Positions 28,109 through 39,266 of a DNA stretch of 64,000 nt are shown in pieces. The notes under the pieces are model-generated. The model saw only the letters and a program-made list of their open reading frames with translations, did no database searches and had not been told where the DNA came from. A program made the translations under genes and the position numbers. Origin of the DNA: Psittacicella hinzii (GTDB lineage Bacteria; Pseudomonadota; Gammaproteobacteria; Enterobacterales; Psittacicellaceae); assembly GCF_003585885.1 (NCBI RefSeq), contig NZ_NRHC01000002.1:1-64000 (forward strand), read 5' to 3'. Numbering within the stretch: position 1 is the first letter of the stretch; each line of letters starts with the position of its first letter.

Positions 28109-29494
28109 TTAAACACTAAGGATAAAGCTCTTAAACAGTTCAACATCACCCAACAGCAAACAGGCAACATACAAATCATTAAAATCTTTAAGCTTCAAAG
28201 CACCACTCTTAACTAGTTTGCTTTGTACATAAGCCTCTAAAGAATTGTTATCAAATTGTAATAATTTAAGCCTGTCGATAAGGACCAACTTCTGTGGATC
28301 ACTTACTGGAGGGACTAGCCACTCTACAGTGCACTGTCTGGACTTATCTCTACACTTCTTCAGCTCTGGTAACTCTCGCTTAGGGTTGCCATTGCTATCT
28401 CTATCATCATCAGCTAAAGCTAAAACTTTACTGTATGAACATATCGAACCAATAAATTCTACAACACTGTGTAAATTCCCAAGACTAAAACATATAGCCA
28501 CGTCCGTAGTCTGATCATTAACCAAATCAAGGGCTAACTTCACACTTGCACCAGTTGCATAACCCTCGCATAGAATTATCCTACTAGGGACGTTAACATT
28601 GCGTAATTTCAGTATGCCATTCTTTACCCCATAATTCTTCATAAAACGCTTTTGACCGTCGGGTTTAATAACTTGATAGCTCATCAACTTACTAGTCTCA
28701 CAACTGTAAATTGGTACCAGTAAATCACCCCTAAATACTCTAGCCGTAGAGTTTGGCGGGGGAGGAGTATCTTCTAAGCAAACCTGTACTAAACCGTCGT
28801 AATCCAAGCCCTTAAGTTGTAAGTAATCCTGTACTAACTCATAGCGTGTTGCAAAGTTATCTTTGTACTCATTAAACCAAGCAGTAAGCTTTTCTGACTT
28901 CTCTTCAGGATCCAAATCAAAATCTACCTGCTCGAGTTTCTTATTTTCTCTTTCTTGAGCATAGTAGGCTCTGTTCACCGTGTCAAAATAAGCACGCTCT
29001 TGTTTAGTTAGTTGCTTACCCTCTTCATTGGTTACGCCCTTATAAACACTCTTACGGTACACTTGGTCAGAGTAGTTATAAACAATTAGCGTACAGCAAT
29101 TAGATGACAGCATGCAAATGTACCCTACAGATTTCTTTTTAGAGTTTCGGGTTGGTATTCTTATCCAGTCCTTAGTATGCTTACTAAGCTTAAAACCTCT
29201 ACATGATGTGAGGTCACCACCACAATCCTCAATTATCTTTTTAGCCCACTGTTCTGCGGTAGCAAAATCTACCTGATCAGTGAGATTATAGTGATAGGGT
29301 TTATAGTCCTCAAGACCAGAGAATTCTTCAGTCAGTATTCTAATATCTTCGCTTTGGATAGCCCAGAGCTTAATGTCATTATCTGTACAAAAAATTACCC
29401 TAGCGTTATAACCTAAATGCCTTAGCTCTTTCTTGGCTTCAGCTTTAAATAAATCCTTATCTGCATGCTTAACTGCGAAATATCTGGTATACAT
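28109..29494 (-). CDS. Phage Toprim-domain primase
   Basis: Probable DNA primase of the prophage. The C-terminal half has a Toprim domain: RIILCEGYATGASVKLAL (about 306-323) with the catalytic Glu, and KVLALADDDRDSNG (about 357-370) with the Mg-binding Asp cluster. Just before it, LLVPIYSCETSKLMSYQVIK and PDGQKRFM resemble the P4/TraC-type primase strand pair that precedes Toprim. The N-terminal ~200 residues are not recognised and no zinc finger is evident. It is the last gene of the leftward early operon, so primase and the DnaB-like helicase frame the small-gene cluster. Confidence 0.75.
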   Translation of the reverse strand: MYTRYFAVKHADKDLFKAEAKKELRHLGYNARVIFCTDNDIKLWAIQSEDIRILTEEFSGLEDYKPYHYNLTDQVDFATAEQWAKKIIEDCGGDLTSCRGFKLSKHTKDWIRIPTRNSKKKSVGYICMLSSNCCTLIVYNYSDQVYRKSVYKGVTNEEGKQLTKQERAYFDTVNRAYYAQERENKKLEQVDFDLDPEEKSEKLTAWFNEYKDNFATRYELVQDYLQLKGLDYDGLVQVCLEDTPPPPNSTARVFRGDLLVPIYSCETSKLMSYQVIKPDGQKRFMKNYGVKNGILKLRNVNVPSRIILCEGYATGASVKLALDLVNDQTTDVAICFSLGNLHSVVEFIGSICSYSKVLALADDDRDSNGNPKRELPELKKCRDKSRQCTVEWLVPPVSDPQKLVLIDRLKLLQFDNNSLEAYVQSKLVKSGALKLKDFNDLYVACLLLGDVELFKSFILSV

Positions 29495-29687
29495 ATCTTT
29501 CCTTGTTACATTGTCACATTTTGCGATCTAAGAGATTGATTTTTGCTAGAAATTCTCTAGAAAAAGATTAGTTTTTAGGCTATTGCTAGGGTAAATGTAG
29601 CTGTAAGTTTATAAGAGGCTTTTAAATATAACTATGCTTAATAATCAATAAATTACGTTTATTTACAACTTGTATGCCCGTTGTTTA

Positions 29688-29759
29688 TCAAATTGAAGCT
29701 AAAATAATAACTACAAAGAAAATAGCAAGCAGGCAAAGGTAAAAATAGTACTCAAACAT
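29688..29759 (-). CDS. Membrane microprotein, 23 aa
   Basis: A 23-residue frame that is almost wholly hydrophobic: MFEYYFYLCLLAIFFVVIIL and three more residues. It reads as a single transmembrane helix. AGAGG lies 5 nt before the ATG, which is good support for translation. It starts 22 nt after the stop of the 40-aa microprotein gene in the same strand and fills the gap between the small-gene cluster and the primase. Function unknown; many phages use such peptides to alter host membranes or membrane sensors. Confidence 0.5.
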   Translation of the reverse strand: MFEYYFYLCLLAIFFVVIILASI

Positions 29760-29780
29760 AAAAACCTCTGTTTGTAATAG

Positions 29781-29903
29781 TTAAATGAAAAACGAAATGA
29801 TGTATAAAATCTTAAGCCAAAAAATAATCTTAAGTATTAGTTTAATCTTTGGCGGTAGTGCTAACCCTAAATCCATTAACGAAGCTAAGTATCTTCCTTT
29901 CAT
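29781..29903 (-). CDS. Small membrane protein, 40 aa
   Basis: A 40-codon frame with AAAGGA 8 nt before the ATG. The N-terminal half is amphipathic and basic (MKGRYLASLMDLGLALPPKI). The C-terminal half, about residues 22-40, is a hydrophobic helix (LILKIIFWLKILYIISFFI). It precedes the 23-aa microprotein gene by 22 nt. Translation is supported only by the ribosome site, reading frame and position. Confidence 0.45.
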   Translation of the reverse strand: MKGRYLASLMDLGLALPPKIKLILKIIFWLKILYIISFFI

Positions 29904-30018
29904 TGTTCTTTTCCTTTATCGTTGTAAGTTGCAATTATCAATTACTTGATGTAAAATAGATTTACATGTTTAGCAAGGGTATGCCTTTCTTTTGAGCATA
30001 GCTTTGTTATTTTGCTGT

Positions 30019-30036
30019 TTATACCTTTGGGTATAA
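30019..30036. repeat. TTATACC palindrome at the end of the small-gene cluster
   Basis: TTATACC-TTTG-GGTATAA, 7-bp arms, in the gap between the 185-aa gene and the 40-aa membrane gene. It resembles the TACC/GGTA half-sites near the repressor gene and could be a further operator or a small hairpin. Confidence 0.35.
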
Positions 30037-30037
30037 T

Positions 30038-30053
30038 GTTTTTGGTTAGGGTT
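30038..30053. repeat. GTTTTTGGTTAGGGTT repeat, copy 1
   Basis: Sixteen-bp motif overlapping the stop codon of the 185-aa gene (on minus it reads AACCCTAACCAAAAAC). An exact copy lies at 31682 and a one-mismatch copy at 39251, each at a gene end in the same operon. Confidence 0.6.
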
Positions 30054-30609
30054 ATGCAGGGTTTGCACTCTGTATAACCTTTTTTCCGTCTAGGGGCATA
30101 ACGAAATTTATATAGTAGATTTTATTAAAATTCCTACCTATGTCACAAAGATCTCTATCTACTAACTTAATTCTTAGACCTGTGCCAGATTTTATTCTAC
30201 CCTCAAAATCATGTAGTAAAAATCTTTTAAAATGATAGAACAATTGATCACATTCAGAGTAAATTATAAAAGCCTGACGGTTCCCTCGCTCTATCTGCGA
30301 AAATAATTTATATCTATCCTCAGCACTATCTAACTTATTTAGCTCTTTTATAATATCAAAAAGTTTTTCATAGTAAGGTAGTAAGCTATCATTATAGCTA
30401 GCAACTATGAAATTTCTACACATTGTAAGCCAATACGAACTAGCCTTAACTGTGTCAATAACAAAATCAGTCCCTACGGTTTCATCAAAAGCATGCGCAT
30501 ACTTTAGATAATTACTAGGGATATAAATTCTTCCTCTAACAGTAACTAACGCTCGCATGTTGTTAAGCGCTTCAATAAATTTCTCAAAATTCTCACTGTT
30601 AATTTTCAT
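30052..30609 (-). CDS. Small early phage protein, paralog-cluster member (185 aa)
   Basis: Not recognised. Globular, helix-rich, no membrane segment. It resembles its upstream neighbour (187 aa) at both ends: N-terminal FEKFIEALNNM against YDGLINALDKL, and a C-terminal block LRIKLVDRDLCDI...IYYINFVMPLDG against IKVNFTDICFNP...LYFVHFDFRG. This suggests an old duplication. It starts 10 nt after the upstream stop. The stop codon lies inside the 16-bp GGTTAGGGTT-type repeat. Early-operon position between helicase and primase is a common site for phage host-takeover or anti-defence genes, but nothing in the sequence proves that. Confidence 0.65.
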   Translation of the reverse strand: MKINSENFEKFIEALNNMRALVTVRGRIYIPSNYLKYAHAFDETVGTDFVIDTVKASSYWLTMCRNFIVASYNDSLLPYYEKLFDIIKELNKLDSAEDRYKLFSQIERGNRQAFIIYSECDQLFYHFKRFLLHDFEGRIKSGTGLRIKLVDRDLCDIGRNFNKIYYINFVMPLDGKKVIQSANPA

Positions 30610-30619
30610 TTATTGTTAC

Positions 30620-31183
30620 CTACCTAATCGATTGATCTAAAAACACTACTGGCGATAAGCCCCTAAAATCAAAGTGCACAAAATAAAGATCCTTAGGCTT
30701 CTTAAGTGGATTAAAACATATATCCGTAAAGTTAACCTTAATACCTGTGGCAGTTAACATAACGTCAGGTAAATTAGCCACGATCAGCTTCTTAACTTTT
30801 GCTAGCAAACTTATAACCTTTTTAGTAATGATTTGCTCTTTGTCCGTTAGCACTGAAAGCGGTTTAGCCATCTTCTTGCTATGGATATGCTTCATTAATT
30901 CCCATATGCCTGCAGAAGTCTCTTTACCAATTTTTAACACTTCTTTACAGTGATGTAGCATTTCATGGATAAAGACATCACACTGAACAGTTCTCACGCC
31001 TACAGGATATTTTTCTACTACCTTTTGTGGACTGTGGTATTTACCAGAGTTAACGCCGTCACCATTATAAATCCTAATTAATTTATTTCTAATCATCTTG
31101 GGATTTGTTAACTCTCTGTTTAGCTTGTCAAGAGCATTTATCAGCCCGTCGTAATCTTTTTCAGCTAATTTATAAATCTTCAC
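30620..31183 (-). CDS. Small early phage protein, paralog-cluster member (187 aa), HEMLH motif
   Basis: Not recognised. Residues 69-78 read DVFIHEMLHH, which contains an HExxH pattern (H73, E74, H77) as in zincin metalloproteases. The 185-aa paralog lacks it, and no third zinc ligand is obvious, so the match may be chance. KKLIVANLPDVML (about 131-143) resembles KHLIISHLPYIKE in the 140-aa neighbour, and INALDKLNREL resembles ISALKRLNRKG there. Ten nt upstream of the 185-aa gene and 11 nt downstream of the 157-aa gene: one tight operon. Confidence 0.65.
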   Translation of the reverse strand: MKIYKLAEKDYDGLINALDKLNRELTNPKMIRNKLIRIYNGDGVNSGKYHSPQKVVEKYPVGVRTVQCDVFIHEMLHHCKEVLKIGKETSAGIWELMKHIHSKKMAKPLSVLTDKEQIITKKVISLLAKVKKLIVANLPDVMLTATGIKVNFTDICFNPLKKPKDLYFVHFDFRGLSPVVFLDQSIR

Positions 31184-31194
31184 GATAGCCTACC

Positions 31195-31668
31195 TTAAAG
31201 ACATAAATCTTCTACAGAGATTTCAGTGATTTCTAAAAATTCTTCACTACCCTCAAAGAAGTTATGCACATTTAACTCTAAATTACGCTCACGAAATTCT
31301 TCTGACGTTGACACTTCTACAACCCAATCGTAAAAACTCTTAAAGCTTAGACTTGTCCATAGTGGTTCAGTAGCAAAAGCTAGGTCAAATAACTCTGAAG
31401 TAGTTTTCAAATTATAGTTATAACTATCTGTTTCTTCGGGATTAACTTGCTCTAAAAATTTTCGCATAAAAAATAAATTACAAAAATCTTTAACTTTAAA
31501 ACAACAAGTCCCATCTCTAGGTTCAAACTTCTGTAAGAGAAAATCTCTATAAAAATCAGCTAGTTGATCATCGTTAAAGAACAGACTAGCATATTGCATC
31601 ATAACCAGCGTTCTTTTAAGTTCTTTAATATGTCTGCTTTTTACTTCTTTTAAATCTAATTCTAACAT
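31195..31668 (-). CDS. Small early phage protein (157 aa)
   Basis: Not recognised. Acidic, rich in Phe, Glu and Leu, no membrane segment; a CCFKVKDFC stretch (about 55-63) holds three Cys but no clear zinc site. Ends in an acidic ITEISVEDLCL. AAGGAA lies before the ATG. Between the 187-aa and 123-aa genes with short gaps; its link to the paralog family is weak. Confidence 0.6.
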   Translation of the reverse strand: MLELDLKEVKSRHIKELKRTLVMMQYASLFFNDDQLADFYRDFLLQKFEPRDGTCCFKVKDFCNLFFMRKFLEQVNPEETDSYNYNLKTTSELFDLAFATEPLWTSLSFKSFYDWVVEVSTSEEFRERNLELNVHNFFEGSEEFLEITEISVEDLCL

Positions 31669-31681
31669 GTTTGCGTTCCTT

Positions 31682-31697
31682 GTTTTTGGTTAGGGTT
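31682..31697. repeat. GTTTTTGGTTAGGGTT repeat, copy 2
   Basis: Exact 16-bp copy of the motif at 30038, again overlapping a stop codon (end of the 123-aa gene). Confidence 0.6.
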
Positions 31698-32061
31698 TCA
31701 TGATCAAAATGTCACCTTCAACTAAAGCAACTATACATATGCCTTTTAACTTCCCATTAATGCCCTCTAAATTGCATTCTAAGAAGCTTTTGAAGTCTGA
31801 CCAATACTTTATTAGCTTCGAACTCTCTTGCTCTGAAAATGACTTTAAAATGACCGCAGCGTCAAAGACAGGTTCATCTAAGCCTTGGTTAAAATAATCG
31901 TTTAGCTTTTCACATAAAACCTTATTGGCAAATAATACTCTCGCTACGCGATATTGAACAGCTAGCTCGCTTAACCTCGTAAATAACCTAACGCAGTAAT
32001 CTACTCCAGCGCCCCCTAAAATCTCTTTAATACAATGATCAACTTTATTCAATTCTGTCAT
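31690..32061 (-). CDS. Small early phage protein, paralog-cluster member (123 aa)
   Basis: Not recognised. Helical N-terminal two thirds and a C-terminal beta-like end, FLECNLEGINGKLKGICIVA then LVEGDILIM. The end resembles YICKNFQQLRRALSLHCKFS then LIEYGILLE of the 128-aa neighbour, and more loosely the 140-aa neighbour. A good GGAGG ribosome site lies 6 nt upstream. Confidence 0.65.
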   Translation of the reverse strand: MTELNKVDHCIKEILGGAGVDYCVRLFTRLSELAVQYRVARVLFANKVLCEKLNDYFNQGLDEPVFDAAVILKSFSEQESSKLIKYWSDFKSFLECNLEGINGKLKGICIVALVEGDILIMKP

Positions 32062-32071
32062 TCAAGCCTCC

Positions 32072-32458
32072 TTAACTAGGTTTATATTCTCTATCTTCCA
32101 GAAGAATTCCATACTCAATAAGTGAAAATTTACAATGTAAAGATAAAGCTCTTCTCAATTGCTGAAAGTTTTTGCAAATGTAATCCTCCAAACTGTTAAC
32201 GAAATCGTCATAGTCTTCCTTATAGTTGTCAGCTATGTAGTTTGCTAATCCAATTCCTAACAGTCGGTGAAGTTCTTCATCTTCTTCTTTGCCAGCATAC
32301 AGCTTTTCTTTGACTTTCTCGGTAATCAAGAAGTTCAATAACTGGCGGTATTTGATATAAGTCGATACCCTGCGATTATTACGCTTTAGCAACTGTATCG
32401 CCATTTCTTCAATACTGTAGCTGAAGATTTCCTCTATGAAGTCAATTACTTTTTCCAT
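32072..32458 (-). CDS. Small early phage protein, paralog-cluster member (128 aa)
   Basis: Not recognised. Helix-rich with a basic patch LLKRNNRRVSTYIKYRQLL (about 23-41) and the shared C-terminal block ending LHCKFSLIEYGILLEDRE. It appears related along its length to the 123-aa product (VIDFIEEIF against VDHCIKEIL). Starts 2 nt after the 140-aa gene stop, so translation is probably coupled. Confidence 0.65.
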   Translation of the reverse strand: MEKVIDFIEEIFSYSIEEMAIQLLKRNNRRVSTYIKYRQLLNFLITEKVKEKLYAGKEEDEELHRLLGIGLANYIADNYKEDYDDFVNSLEDYICKNFQQLRRALSLHCKFSLIEYGILLEDREYKPS

Positions 32459-32460
32459 GT

Positions 32461-32883
32461 TTAACTCGCTTTGACCTTGTTACAACATTGGCATATTTCA
32501 GATTCACAATCATGATCATGTAAAATCACATAATCACCATCTACCTTAACTCTACAGTGTTCTCGCATACCCTCCTTAATATATGGCAAATGACTGATTA
32601 TTAAGTGTTTGGTATGTCCTAATATAGTATTAAAATCTTCAGGGCATTTATCCTTGAAAAATTCACCAAATAAAAATCCTTTGTTAAACCAGTACTTTTC
32701 TGAAACTTTATCGTCATACACGTGATACCAATTTGCAAACCAATCCCCAAAGGTAGAGTAAACAATCTCCTCTAAAGAGTAAATAGTACGCTCTCCTTTT
32801 CTATTTAAGCGTTTCAATGCAGAAATTAAATTATTGTGATGTATAACTTCATAAGCCATTCTTTTGGTTAATACTAGCCCCAT
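32461..32883 (-). CDS. Small early phage protein, paralog-cluster member (140 aa), Cys/His-rich end
   Basis: Not recognised. It has LISALKRLNRKG (about 18-29) and HLIISHLPYIKEGMREHCRV (about 92-111), both echoed in the 187-aa paralog. The tail LHDHDCESEICQCCNKV (about 121-137) has four Cys and two His within 17 residues, which could bind a metal. Its ATG directly follows the TAA of the 136-aa gene inside a 16-bp repeat (32880-32895). Confidence 0.65.
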   Translation of the reverse strand: MGLVLTKRMAYEVIHHNNLISALKRLNRKGERTIYSLEEIVYSTFGDWFANWYHVYDDKVSEKYWFNKGFLFGEFFKDKCPEDFNTILGHTKHLIISHLPYIKEGMREHCRVKVDGDYVILHDHDCESEICQCCNKVKAS

Positions 32884-32895
32884 TTACTTGTCCTC
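32880..32895 (-). repeat. 16-bp junction repeat, copy 1
   Basis: On minus, GAGGACAAGTAAATGG: a Shine-Dalgarno (GAGGA), the last codons, TAA stop and the next ATG in one block. Identical at 33291-33306. Confidence 0.7.
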
Positions 32896-33294
32896 CGTCC
32901 AGCATAGAGTTGAGATCCTTATGTGATCCTTAAACTTAGAATAAACTAATTCTTCATCTCTAAATGTTAAGTCGTCAAAGTTACGAGAGTTGTTAATGAT
33001 TTCCATATACTTGTCATAATACTCTTCGTTGTAGCCTCTCATTTTGTGATATCTATACAAATATGCGTAAGAGGCTCCCATACTTACCTGTGGATGAAGC
33101 TTTCGAAACTCTTCCAGTAAAACCGAACGATAGCATTCGTCGTATCTTATTTCATAATGTCGATAATATGCGTATTCTTTCTTCAGAAAAGCTTTAAGAA
33201 TACCAATTGCTTCTTCTGTTGATAGCTTCCTAGCAATCTCATCGAAATCTTTTTTGATCGTTTCGTCATCTACTAACAGCGGTTTAGGTGCCAT
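32884..33294 (-). CDS. Small early phage protein (136 aa)
   Basis: Not recognised. Very rich in Tyr, Arg and Glu (KKEYAYYRHYEIRYDECYRS at about 38-57; YAYLYRYHKMRGYNEEYYDK at about 76-95), helical, no membrane segment. Ends in EDK, as does its upstream neighbour. Stop and next start are fused (TAAATG) in the 16-bp junction repeat at both ends of this gene, so it looks like an insertable cassette. Confidence 0.65.
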   Translation of the reverse strand: MAPKPLLVDDETIKKDFDEIARKLSTEEAIGILKAFLKKEYAYYRHYEIRYDECYRSVLLEEFRKLHPQVSMGASYAYLYRYHKMRGYNEEYYDKYMEIINNSRNFDDLTFRDEELVYSKFKDHIRISTLCWTEDK

Positions 33295-33306
33295 TTACTT
33301 GTCCTC
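33291..33306 (-). repeat. 16-bp junction repeat, copy 2
   Basis: Exact copy of the block at 32880-32895; joins the 131-aa and 136-aa genes. Confidence 0.7.
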
Positions 33307-33690
33307 ATAAAAATGTAAGTGCTCATTACCAACCACAAAGTGCACTTCCTTGCCATTAATAACCAGAGTTCTGTCATAATCGCCATTCACTAAGTAGTCG
33401 TAAAATCTATATGCGTTATCTTCAAAGCAATCCAAACTAAACGGATGGGTAGTACCAACAAATGGGTAAGCTACTTCAGGGTAAGGTAATTCTTGCTGAA
33501 CTTCTGGATAACGCCCAACTGTATGCTCATACGCAAGCTTATGAAAAACATTTATCCAGTTAATCATAAACTCACCGTTCTTAGGTTCGTAAACTTCCTC
33601 TACATGTTCCAAAAAGATCGCTAGTATCATTTCATTACCTAGTTCAGCGAACTCGTTTAAACCAAAATCTACCCAATCATTTGTTTCCAT
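33295..33690 (-). CDS. Small early phage protein (131 aa)
   Basis: Not recognised. Acidic and aromatic; N-terminal helix WVDFGLNEFAELGNEMILAI and a proline-rich middle (ELPYPEVAYPFVGTTHPF at about 67-84). C-terminal strands RTLVINGKEVHFVVGNEHL look like a small beta-hairpin. First of the small-gene cluster, 20 nt after the helicase gene. Confidence 0.65.
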   Translation of the reverse strand: METNDWVDFGLNEFAELGNEMILAIFLEHVEEVYEPKNGEFMINWINVFHKLAYEHTVGRYPEVQQELPYPEVAYPFVGTTHPFSLDCFEDNAYRFYDYLVNGDYDRTLVINGKEVHFVVGNEHLHFYEDK

Positions 33691-33710: not shown

Positions 33711-35348
33711 CTAACCTTTCTTAACCCAGTGTAAGTACCTCTCAAAATTATCAACTCCGTAAAGAGTTTTTCCCTCTCGTGTGGTTGTTCTTTCTGAAAA
33801 TCCATATTGACCATGTAAAAATATAGGTCGAGAATGTACACTCACGCGCCCGATACGGTTCTTCACAATGCTTACCCAAACCTTGCTAAAACCGTTATCC
33901 CTTAACTCTCTAAGAGGGGCTTTCTCGGTTTCTGGCATGCTAGGTAATTCAGTTAAGTTAGCCTTACACAGCGTTATAATCATGTCAGCGTCTTGTGTGT
34001 AGTTTCGGCTTCCCTTTATAGAACTCGCTGGGGGTGGGTTATGCTCATCGTAATCTTTGCCATCAGCGGTTAATACCTGTGCTAAAGCAAAAGTTACAAG
34101 CTTGTATTTGCGGGTTATGTCTCGTATTGTGGCAGTTATAACGTTGTGACGTTCAAAATCCCCGCCATTAATTGCTCTATCCTCCGTATCCAGTATTTGT
34201 AAGTAATCGATTAGAATAACGTCAGGCGTCTTGCCCTGTGATGACATTAAGTCAATATCGCGCTTAATATCTTCAACTGTCGCAATCTGATCCCTATCTT
34301 TGATATCTAGGTACTTATCCCAACCGCTTGCCTCAAGAAATACCTGAAACGCTCTGACACACTTAAGCAAGTGAGCCTGAAGCCTTTGCCCTGTTAATTC
34401 CTTATTGAGAAAGTTATCAGAGAATTCTTTTTTGTTAAAGTAAAAGGTATATTGCCCATTCTGATACCAAAAATATTTAGCTAACTGAAGATATATGTCT
34501 TGAAGAGGTAACTCGGCAGAGTAGAATACAATTCTCTTTTTTGGCGAGCCTGCACGTTGATTATTGAGTAATAATTGAGCCACTTGTTGGACTGCGTAAG
34601 CAGTCTTCCCGACACCAGGTAATGCCCCAATGATCACATACTTACCTTTAGGGATAGCTCCGCCGTTTGTAATTAAGTGATCTAGTTTTATAGGTGATAG
34701 CATTACAGGATGATCGTCAGCAATATTCTCTATATCTTCAGTAGCTAATTTTAAACATAAGGCTAAATTATTCTCTTCTACTTTAGCTTTGTTAACCTCT
34801 CTGCTGAGTTGCGTCAAATCCTCGATAAGATTGCTTAAGTCATTAGGGTCTCCATTTGTATGCTCCTTATATACGTAGGCAATATAATCGGTTTTTGCGC
34901 GTGTGTAGTCTCCAACAACTACGTCTAAAATTCGTTTGTAGTATTTAAAATCAATCTCACATTTTAAAAACTTAGTGCTTTCAAGCCTTATATCCTCAAA
35001 TACTTTTTTAAGGCGTGAGATTGATACATGGCGCTCTTTATCATCTTTAGAGCGAGACCCTATGGTTGCCACCATTTTATTGTAGGTTTCTACAAGTATT
35101 AACCCTAACTCGTTCTCTATAGCATTTAAATCTGTTTGTTTATCATTCTTTAAATTGCTAAATTCATCTTGTAAAAGCTTATAGTAACCCACTAGTACCG
35201 GCTCGTCCATCATGTTGCAGGTCTGACTTCTCAAATCTTTTAATATTTCTTGGCGATCCTTAACATGTGGGTTACTTAATACTGTTATGAAAAGACCTAT
35301 TAAAGCGGCACCATAATCTCGTTTTACTTGTTGCCCTTGTTCTTTCAT
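33711..35348 (-). CDS. DnaB-like replicative helicase of the phage
   Basis: Hexameric 5'-3' helicase for phage replication. The RecA-like domain is clear: Walker A IIGALPGVGKTAYAV (about 234-248), SAELP (about 280-284), Walker B DVILIDYLQIL (about 374-384), FALAQVLTADGKDYDEHNPP, and the DnaB H4 motif SSIKGSRNYTQDADMIITL (about 447-465). Residues 1-220 are helical and unlike the usual DnaB N-terminal domain, perhaps a phage-specific primase- or loader-binding region. Next to a small winged-helix-like gene that may load it, and in one operon with the Toprim primase. Confidence 0.88.
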   Translation of the reverse strand: MKEQGQQVKRDYGAALIGLFITVLSNPHVKDRQEILKDLRSQTCNMMDEPVLVGYYKLLQDEFSNLKNDKQTDLNAIENELGLILVETYNKMVATIGSRSKDDKERHVSISRLKKVFEDIRLESTKFLKCEIDFKYYKRILDVVVGDYTRAKTDYIAYVYKEHTNGDPNDLSNLIEDLTQLSREVNKAKVEENNLALCLKLATEDIENIADDHPVMLSPIKLDHLITNGGAIPKGKYVIIGALPGVGKTAYAVQQVAQLLLNNQRAGSPKKRIVFYSAELPLQDIYLQLAKYFWYQNGQYTFYFNKKEFSDNFLNKELTGQRLQAHLLKCVRAFQVFLEASGWDKYLDIKDRDQIATVEDIKRDIDLMSSQGKTPDVILIDYLQILDTEDRAINGGDFERHNVITATIRDITRKYKLVTFALAQVLTADGKDYDEHNPPPASSIKGSRNYTQDADMIITLCKANLTELPSMPETEKAPLRELRDNGFSKVWVSIVKNRIGRVSVHSRPIFLHGQYGFSERTTTREGKTLYGVDNFERYLHWVKKG

Positions 35349-37088: not shown

Positions 37089-38021
37089 TTATAAATCAAA
37101 TAAGTACTTAATTGCACGTTTGTCGAAGTCCGTTAAATGCTCACTATTTAAGGCTTGAAGTGCTTGTTCTTGGTTCTGGATGTCGTAAACATCTACAGAT
37201 AGATAAAGGTCATTAACTTCAGCGTAAATTGCCAAGTAATGCCACTTAGTGATCTTAATGGTCTGCCCTTGTGTCCAAGCTTTTAGTCTTGATTTCTCAA
37301 GGTTGACTACATTATGGATCTCTTGTATGTTATAATCTTTTCTGAACTTCTCTGACGTGAGCTGTAAGTCATTACAGTAGTTCTTGAACGCTTCTTCAGA
37401 GAAGATTTCACCGTTGTTAATTTTCGGGGATGTATACCCTACTCTCTCGCATTTAACAATGAGGTCAAAATGAAATTCGAAATCACGCTTCTGGATAGTC
37501 TTATCAACTTCCTCGAACGTCTTTCCGTCGGTAGTACGTTTCTGTTTTATCGTGCAAATAAATGGTAACTCTAGGTTTGCAATGTATGATAAGACGTCAT
37601 CGTTAGCCCTGCTAATCATCATGTGATCCCTCATATTAAGGTTTCCTGATTTATTAGCGAACGCTTTGCCGAAAATTCCATTTTTACCATTCCAGCCGGG
37701 TGATATGCTATCTACCATAATGCACTTATAATCCATGCTTTTCGCTTGCTCTACGCACTTTTTCATTGTCGCGTAATTAAATTCATCGTCATTAACTAGG
37801 GCAATGTCAAAGTAGTTTTTGTTAGCTCCAGCATGTGTAAATGCGGTTTTTATCGCTCCGGCTTCTGTGTCAATCACAGCAATCCTATAGTTGTCCGGAT
37901 TAGGATCTAGACGTCTAAACGCTTCGGCTAATTGTACTGCGTGAACCGTCTTGCCTGATCCGGCTTTTCCTATAAATGCAGCCTTTAAAACTTTCTTTAA
38001 TTGGTCGGCTTTAATAAACAT
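37089..38021 (-). CDS. Sak4-like phage recombination ATPase
   Basis: RecA-fold P-loop ATPase of the phage AAA_24/Sak4 type, probably a single-strand annealing recombinase. Walker A FIGKAGSGKTVHAVQ (about 16-30), IAVIDTEAGA (about 47-56), Walker B KCIMVDSISPGW (about 99-110), and the FICTIKQKR sensor strand (about 155-163). Residues beyond 240 form a small extra domain not recognised. Known Sak4 proteins work with a phage SSB, which is present at 42761. Overlaps the next upstream gene by 11 nt. Confidence 0.75.
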   Translation of the reverse strand: MFIKADQLKKVLKAAFIGKAGSGKTVHAVQLAEAFRRLDPNPDNYRIAVIDTEAGAIKTAFTHAGANKNYFDIALVNDDEFNYATMKKCVEQAKSMDYKCIMVDSISPGWNGKNGIFGKAFANKSGNLNMRDHMMISRANDDVLSYIANLELPFICTIKQKRTTDGKTFEEVDKTIQKRDFEFHFDLIVKCERVGYTSPKINNGEIFSEEAFKNYCNDLQLTSEKFRKDYNIQEIHNVVNLEKSRLKAWTQGQTIKITKWHYLAIYAEVNDLYLSVDVYDIQNQEQALQALNSEHLTDFDKRAIKYLFDL

Positions 38022-39223: not shown

Positions 39224-39250
39224 ATCTCCGTAATGTCATGTTAATTTGCT

Positions 39251-39266
39251 GTTATTGGTTAGGGTT
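39251..39266. repeat. GTTATTGGTTAGGGTT repeat, copy 3
   Basis: One mismatch from the two copies at 30038 and 31682, again next to a gene end (coiled-coil gene, stop at 39268). TTTGCTGTT precedes it, as near copy 1. Confidence 0.55.

Follow-up and report, generated by a model that had tools for sequence, protein, structure and literature searches.

Eight small orphan genes between the helicase and primase genes of a Psittacicella prophage, three of them apparent tandem paralogs

Beside its replication genes, in the early operon, the temperate phage lambda has the ninR region, a group of small genes that are for the most part dispensable, and mosaic slots are common among temperate phages generally. 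The array of eight genes (g1 to g8) described here from a Psittacicella prophage resembles ninR in being a block of small genes beside replication genes in a temperate phage, but by description ninR lies at another position, contains other genes and has no known trio of paralogs. Ocr, ArdA, Ral and the internal proteins of T4 are likewise products of small accessory genes, and two array proteins, g1 and g6, share the strongly acidic character of DNA-mimic inhibitors; unlike these described proteins, the array yields no sequence or profile match to any of them. Small, tightly packed genes are a hallmark of blocks that interact with the host, of which the host takeover module of Bacillus phage SPO1 is an example (PMC6873191). 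Like the array, the SPO1 module is a dense block of small genes that mostly lack known targets, but it comprises 26 genes in the terminal early region of a lytic phage and is driven by strong early promoters (PMC6873191), whereas the array comprises eight genes in the replication operon of a prophage and has no known sequence link to SPO1. Phage accessory genes that have been screened include those for counter-defence proteins (PMC12373910). As in phage host-takeover and accessory modules, the array is a cluster of small, lineage-specific genes. The first-pass annotation of this DNA had proposed the array as a candidate for an undescribed system, which overstates the case, since phages are known to carry arrays of small orphan accessory genes; the array is ordinary in kind, and what sets it apart is a recognisable trio of apparent tandem paralogs together with a predicted fold that has no match.

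The array was analysed in a stretch of 64,000 nucleotides (the window, to which positions refer unless stated otherwise) on contig C75, the genome as a whole measuring 2.3 Mb. The host is a bird-associated Psittacicella and the array is carried by a dormant virus, an intact-looking 45-kb prophage with one end at about 28.0 kb of the window and a tyrosine-type integrase (contig position 72210-73400) at the other; read by eye, it seems to include genes for head, tail and lysis. The replication operon is encoded on the minus strand and consists in order of genes for a Sak4-like ATPase (37089-38021) and a YqaJ-type exonuclease, two small genes, a DnaB-like replicative helicase gene (33711..35348) directly upstream of the array, g1 to g8, a gap of 557 nt and a Toprim-type primase gene (28109..29494) downstream of the array. 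Profile searches of the neighbouring operon genes covered the helicase and the primase, both of which gave matches that bear out the earlier placement of the array between them; the Sak4-like and YqaJ-type genes carry names given by reading of their sequences and are presumably what those names say.

The eight open reading frames are arranged head to tail on the minus strand from 30052 to 33690, with lengths of 131, 136, 140, 128, 123, 157, 187 and 185 aa and intergenic gaps of 0, 0, 2, 10, 21, 11 and 10 nt from g1 to g8. They are real coding genes: their codon bias is like that of other prophage genes (0.30-0.50 bits per codon) and is confined to frame 0, the other frames being close to zero. 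The earlier description of eight small head-to-tail genes of 123-187 aa with gaps of 0-21 nt agrees with these data, and of the span 28109-33690 assigned to them the upper boundary holds while the lower one, 28109, marks where the primase gene ends, a gene which the 557-nt gap separates from the array. The first gene, g1 (33295..33690), encodes a very acidic protein (pI 4.4) and g2 (32884..33294) shares the reading frame of its neighbours g1 and g3, with a gap of 0 nt to each; the searches yielded no relative for g1 or g2. The g3 protein (32461..32883) has a Cys-rich C-terminal tail and appears to be a paralog of g4 (32072..32458), the hub of the putative trio, and more distantly of g5 (31690..32061), which in turn is a likely paralog of g4. 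The acidic g6 protein (31195..31668, pI 4.5) has no supported relative. The last two genes, g7 (30620..31183), which starts with GTG and encodes a basic protein (pI 9.6), and g8 (30052..30609), are probable paralogs of each other. Isoelectric points thus range across the array from 4.4 to 9.6. Residues 68-79 of g7 form an isolated CDVFIHEMLHHC stretch with an HExxH motif, and a likeness of this stretch to a TFIIH C1-like zinc finger extends over 14 residues only and is probably due to chance.

At the level of local similarity every pair among the eight proteins is weak, and the pairwise identities among g3, g4 and g5 are only about 20%. In full-length (global) alignments, scored as Z values against shuffles that preserve local (window) composition, g3-g4 and g4-g5 reach 4.4 and 4.2, both of which exceed all 666 control pairs drawn from other small proteins of the same genome and its relative, and this result is stable over three matrices. 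A profile HMM built from g3 and g5 ranked g4 first among 161 ORFs with an E value of 2e-4, the runner-up having 0.06. The three top-scoring pairs are all neighbours, and gene order and similarity are associated with a permutation p of 0.034. Because the global scores lie above the controls, the g3+g5 profile finds g4 and neighbours are most alike, g3, g4 and g5 are best read as diverged tandem paralogs that would have arisen from one ancestor by duplication followed by strong divergence. The full-length alignment was adopted after the local and ungapped tests had proved weak, a choice whose possible bias is reduced but not removed by the control pairs and by the leave-one-out profile. That the likeness reflects convergence of helical, similarly sized proteins and not descent would be in keeping with the low identities and with the behaviour of a C-terminal pattern which aligns without gaps in g3, g4, g5, g7 and g8 and is optimal for that set, but which scores 25 against a null of 32 +/- 44, no better than sets of unrelated proteins. 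Convergence is nevertheless very improbable, as the pairwise and profile similarity within g3-g5 (31690-32883) exceeds both shuffles and real control pairs and the profile of two members recovers the third.

Beyond the trio the evidence for kinship is graded. The pair g7-g8 gives p values between 0.0003 and 0.008, according to the matrix used and uncorrected for the 28 pairs, and is probably a second duplicated pair. The mean Z of the 28 array pairs is 0.90, compared with 0.12 +/- 0.20 in random sets of eight, none of 2000 of which reaches 0.90, and this raised mean similarity comes mostly from g3-g5. Pairwise hhalign of single sequences rises above background for g3-g4 (probability 14%, E 0.002, 68 columns) and for a short g3-g7 motif, while the remaining pairs of this profile comparison, which had been put forward as a check, do not. 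No relationship of g1, g2 or g6 to other array genes was detected, so that the eight do not form a single paralogous family in which each is detectably related to at least one other, the g7-g8 link being borderline. Of the at least five paralogs first suggested, three are retained as apparent paralogs and two as probable ones, and the accompanying picture of repeated duplication and divergence, with neighbours most alike, applies to these genes and is not borne out for the whole array; the common C-terminal pattern survives as an alignment in five genes and fails as a score.

The structure of g4 was predicted with fair confidence by AlphaFold2 from an alignment that held g5 and g3 as its only other rows (pLDDT 78.4, pTM 0.70). 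In the model two helices are followed by a strand, four more helices and, at the C-terminus, a beta hairpin, and a search with it gave nothing significant among solved structures (PDB, best E 0.48) or predicted viral structures (BFVD, best E 0.17). The model obtained for g7/g8 was poor (pLDDT 49.8) and too unreliable for a structure search.

None of the eight proteins has a convincing family match in Pfam, PHROGs, NCBIfam or PADLOC, the last of which contains defence proteins and not their inhibitors, and none was found in the PDB with g3, the g3-g5 profile and the g7-g8 profile as queries, in agreement with the initial statement that no known family is represented. With respect to described anti-defence families, the array proteins have no profile match in Pfam, PHROGs or NCBIfam, and the g4 model has no counterpart of similar fold in PDB or BFVD. 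A tblastn search with all eight joined returned nothing from 50,697 phage and 72,556 plasmid records, and the same joined query found nothing beyond the window in 296 related genomes. Nothing beyond the window was obtained with g4 and g5 singly at loose cut-offs, in scans of IMG/VR with g3, g4, g5, g7, g8 and the helicase, or with the g3-g5 and g7-g8 profiles. The eight genes are orphans within the collections searched. Weak profile matches of g5 to phrog_19779 (E 0.003, with control genomes also matching at a loose cut-off) and of g3 to Cas12f were judged to be chance or too weak, and a 118-aa gene of a P. hinzii prophage, the top non-member in a search with a five-protein profile (E 0.009), is too weak to claim. 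No match was obtained in Rfam, and promoter-like sites show no excess over shuffles.

The search for related prophages yielded two, L008 and L009 from P. hinzii, with helicases 28-29% and primases 31% identical to those of the array prophage. They share the order of Sak4-like ATPase, YqaJ-type exonuclease, DnaB-like helicase, small gene and Toprim primase, but in place of the eight genes they carry one conserved gene of 158 aa which overlaps the primase gene by 26 nt and has no detectable similarity to any of g1 to g8. Since unrelated content occupies the same slot in related prophages, the slot between helicase and primase is variable, albeit in a small sample of three prophages, and the variation of the locus that was to be looked for in related prophages is thus present. 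A weak profile match of the 158-aa protein to Cas6 was judged to be chance or too weak. Two Desulfovibrio loci (L022 and L023) that were found via the primase appear to carry primases of conjugative elements and lack a slot of this kind. Elsewhere in the P. hinzii prophages, two small genes after the primase in one correspond to a fused 264-aa gene in the other (L008:9300-10173 and L009:8793-9587).

Short repeats are located at several gene junctions of the array. The repeat GAGGACAAGTAAATGG occurs in two exact copies, the only ones in the whole genome, at g1/g2 (33291..33306, minus strand) and g2/g3 (32880..32895, minus strand), where it takes in the final codons of the preceding gene, a likely ribosome-binding site and the beginning of the gene that follows. 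A 3' linker, AACCCTAACCAAAAACA, is found at the end of g5 (31681..31697, minus strand) and in a second exact copy at the end of g8 (30037..30053, minus strand), and recurs with one mismatch at 39250-39266 on the minus strand after an upstream gene for a 240-aa coiled-coil protein; no further site within one mismatch exists in the 2.3-Mb genome. The form common to these three 3' ends of the leftward operon is AACCCTAACCAA[A/T]AACA. Junction repeats and linkers fit duplication or exchange of gene cassettes, and shared translation or processing signals would also explain them. An inverted repeat of fifteen pairs (30048-30081) lies at the 3' end of g8 and adjoins the recurring linker.

The AT-rich region of 557 nt between g8 and the primase (29495..30051) is non-coding, with a longest ORF of at most 54 aa. 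Two possible tiny hydrophobic ORFs of 23 and 40 aa with ribosome-binding-like sites can be read on its minus strand (29688-29759 and 29781-29903), and the related prophages have small membrane-protein-like ORFs of 77-85 aa directly after the primase. A segment of about 119 nt (29541-29659) is 70% identical to an intergenic stretch near a porin-like gene on contig C90 (4314-4433).

Based on small size, packing, orphan status, duplication and slot variability, and by analogy with the SPO1 module and the screened phage accessory genes, the array is tentatively read as an accessory block directed at host proteins, most likely for counter-defence or takeover, although this falls somewhat short of an even chance. 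Replication accessory proteins would suit the place of the array within the replication operon just as well, and the products may instead work together with the DnaB-like helicase and the Toprim primase on either side as a helicase loader, as partners of primase or helicase, or as single-strand-binding or recombination helpers. The slot itself, the Sak4-like ATPase and YqaJ-type exonuclease genes of the operon and the conserved 158-aa gene that fills the slot in related prophages and overlaps the primase by 26 nt would all suit such a role, but those phages replicate with one unrelated gene in the slot, eight orphans of which three appear to be copies of one another exceed the needs of a replisome, and no family match to loaders is found; a replication function is considered unlikely, if well within consideration.

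A comparable, rather low likelihood is given to the array being a mixed, ninR-like set of captured unrelated genes with separate roles, in which g3-g5 would be the one duplicated family. The absence of detected relations for g1, g2 and g6, the wide spread of isoelectric points and the mosaic slots of temperate phages in general are what such a collection would predict, while the mean similarity of all eight above random sets, mostly via g3-g5, and the recurrence of two linkers between array members speak against it. A much bolder reading, which is very unlikely, is that the block consists of tandemly amplified variable inhibitors of a new fold, each copy directed against a different defence and added at a fixed slot via the junction linkers; the family would then comprise g3-g5 and g7-g8 and possibly others beyond recognition by sequence.

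For the host-facing accessory reading, it is proposed that the block represents variable accessory genes within the replication operon of an intact-looking temperate Psittacicella phage, probably assembled in part via duplication and in part via capture of unrelated genes. To judge from operon position alone, the array genes would be expressed together with those for replication in the early lytic phase, and their small, non-enzymatic products may bind and modulate host proteins, most likely defence or takeover targets, with duplicated copies possibly specialised for different targets. If the duplicated genes inhibit host defences, the array would supply a small set of naturally diverged inhibitors whose fold is new, and it could help to uncover defences in a bacterial family that has been little studied; if they do not, it would add to the known cases of orphan genes that evolve fast within the replication operon of a phage.
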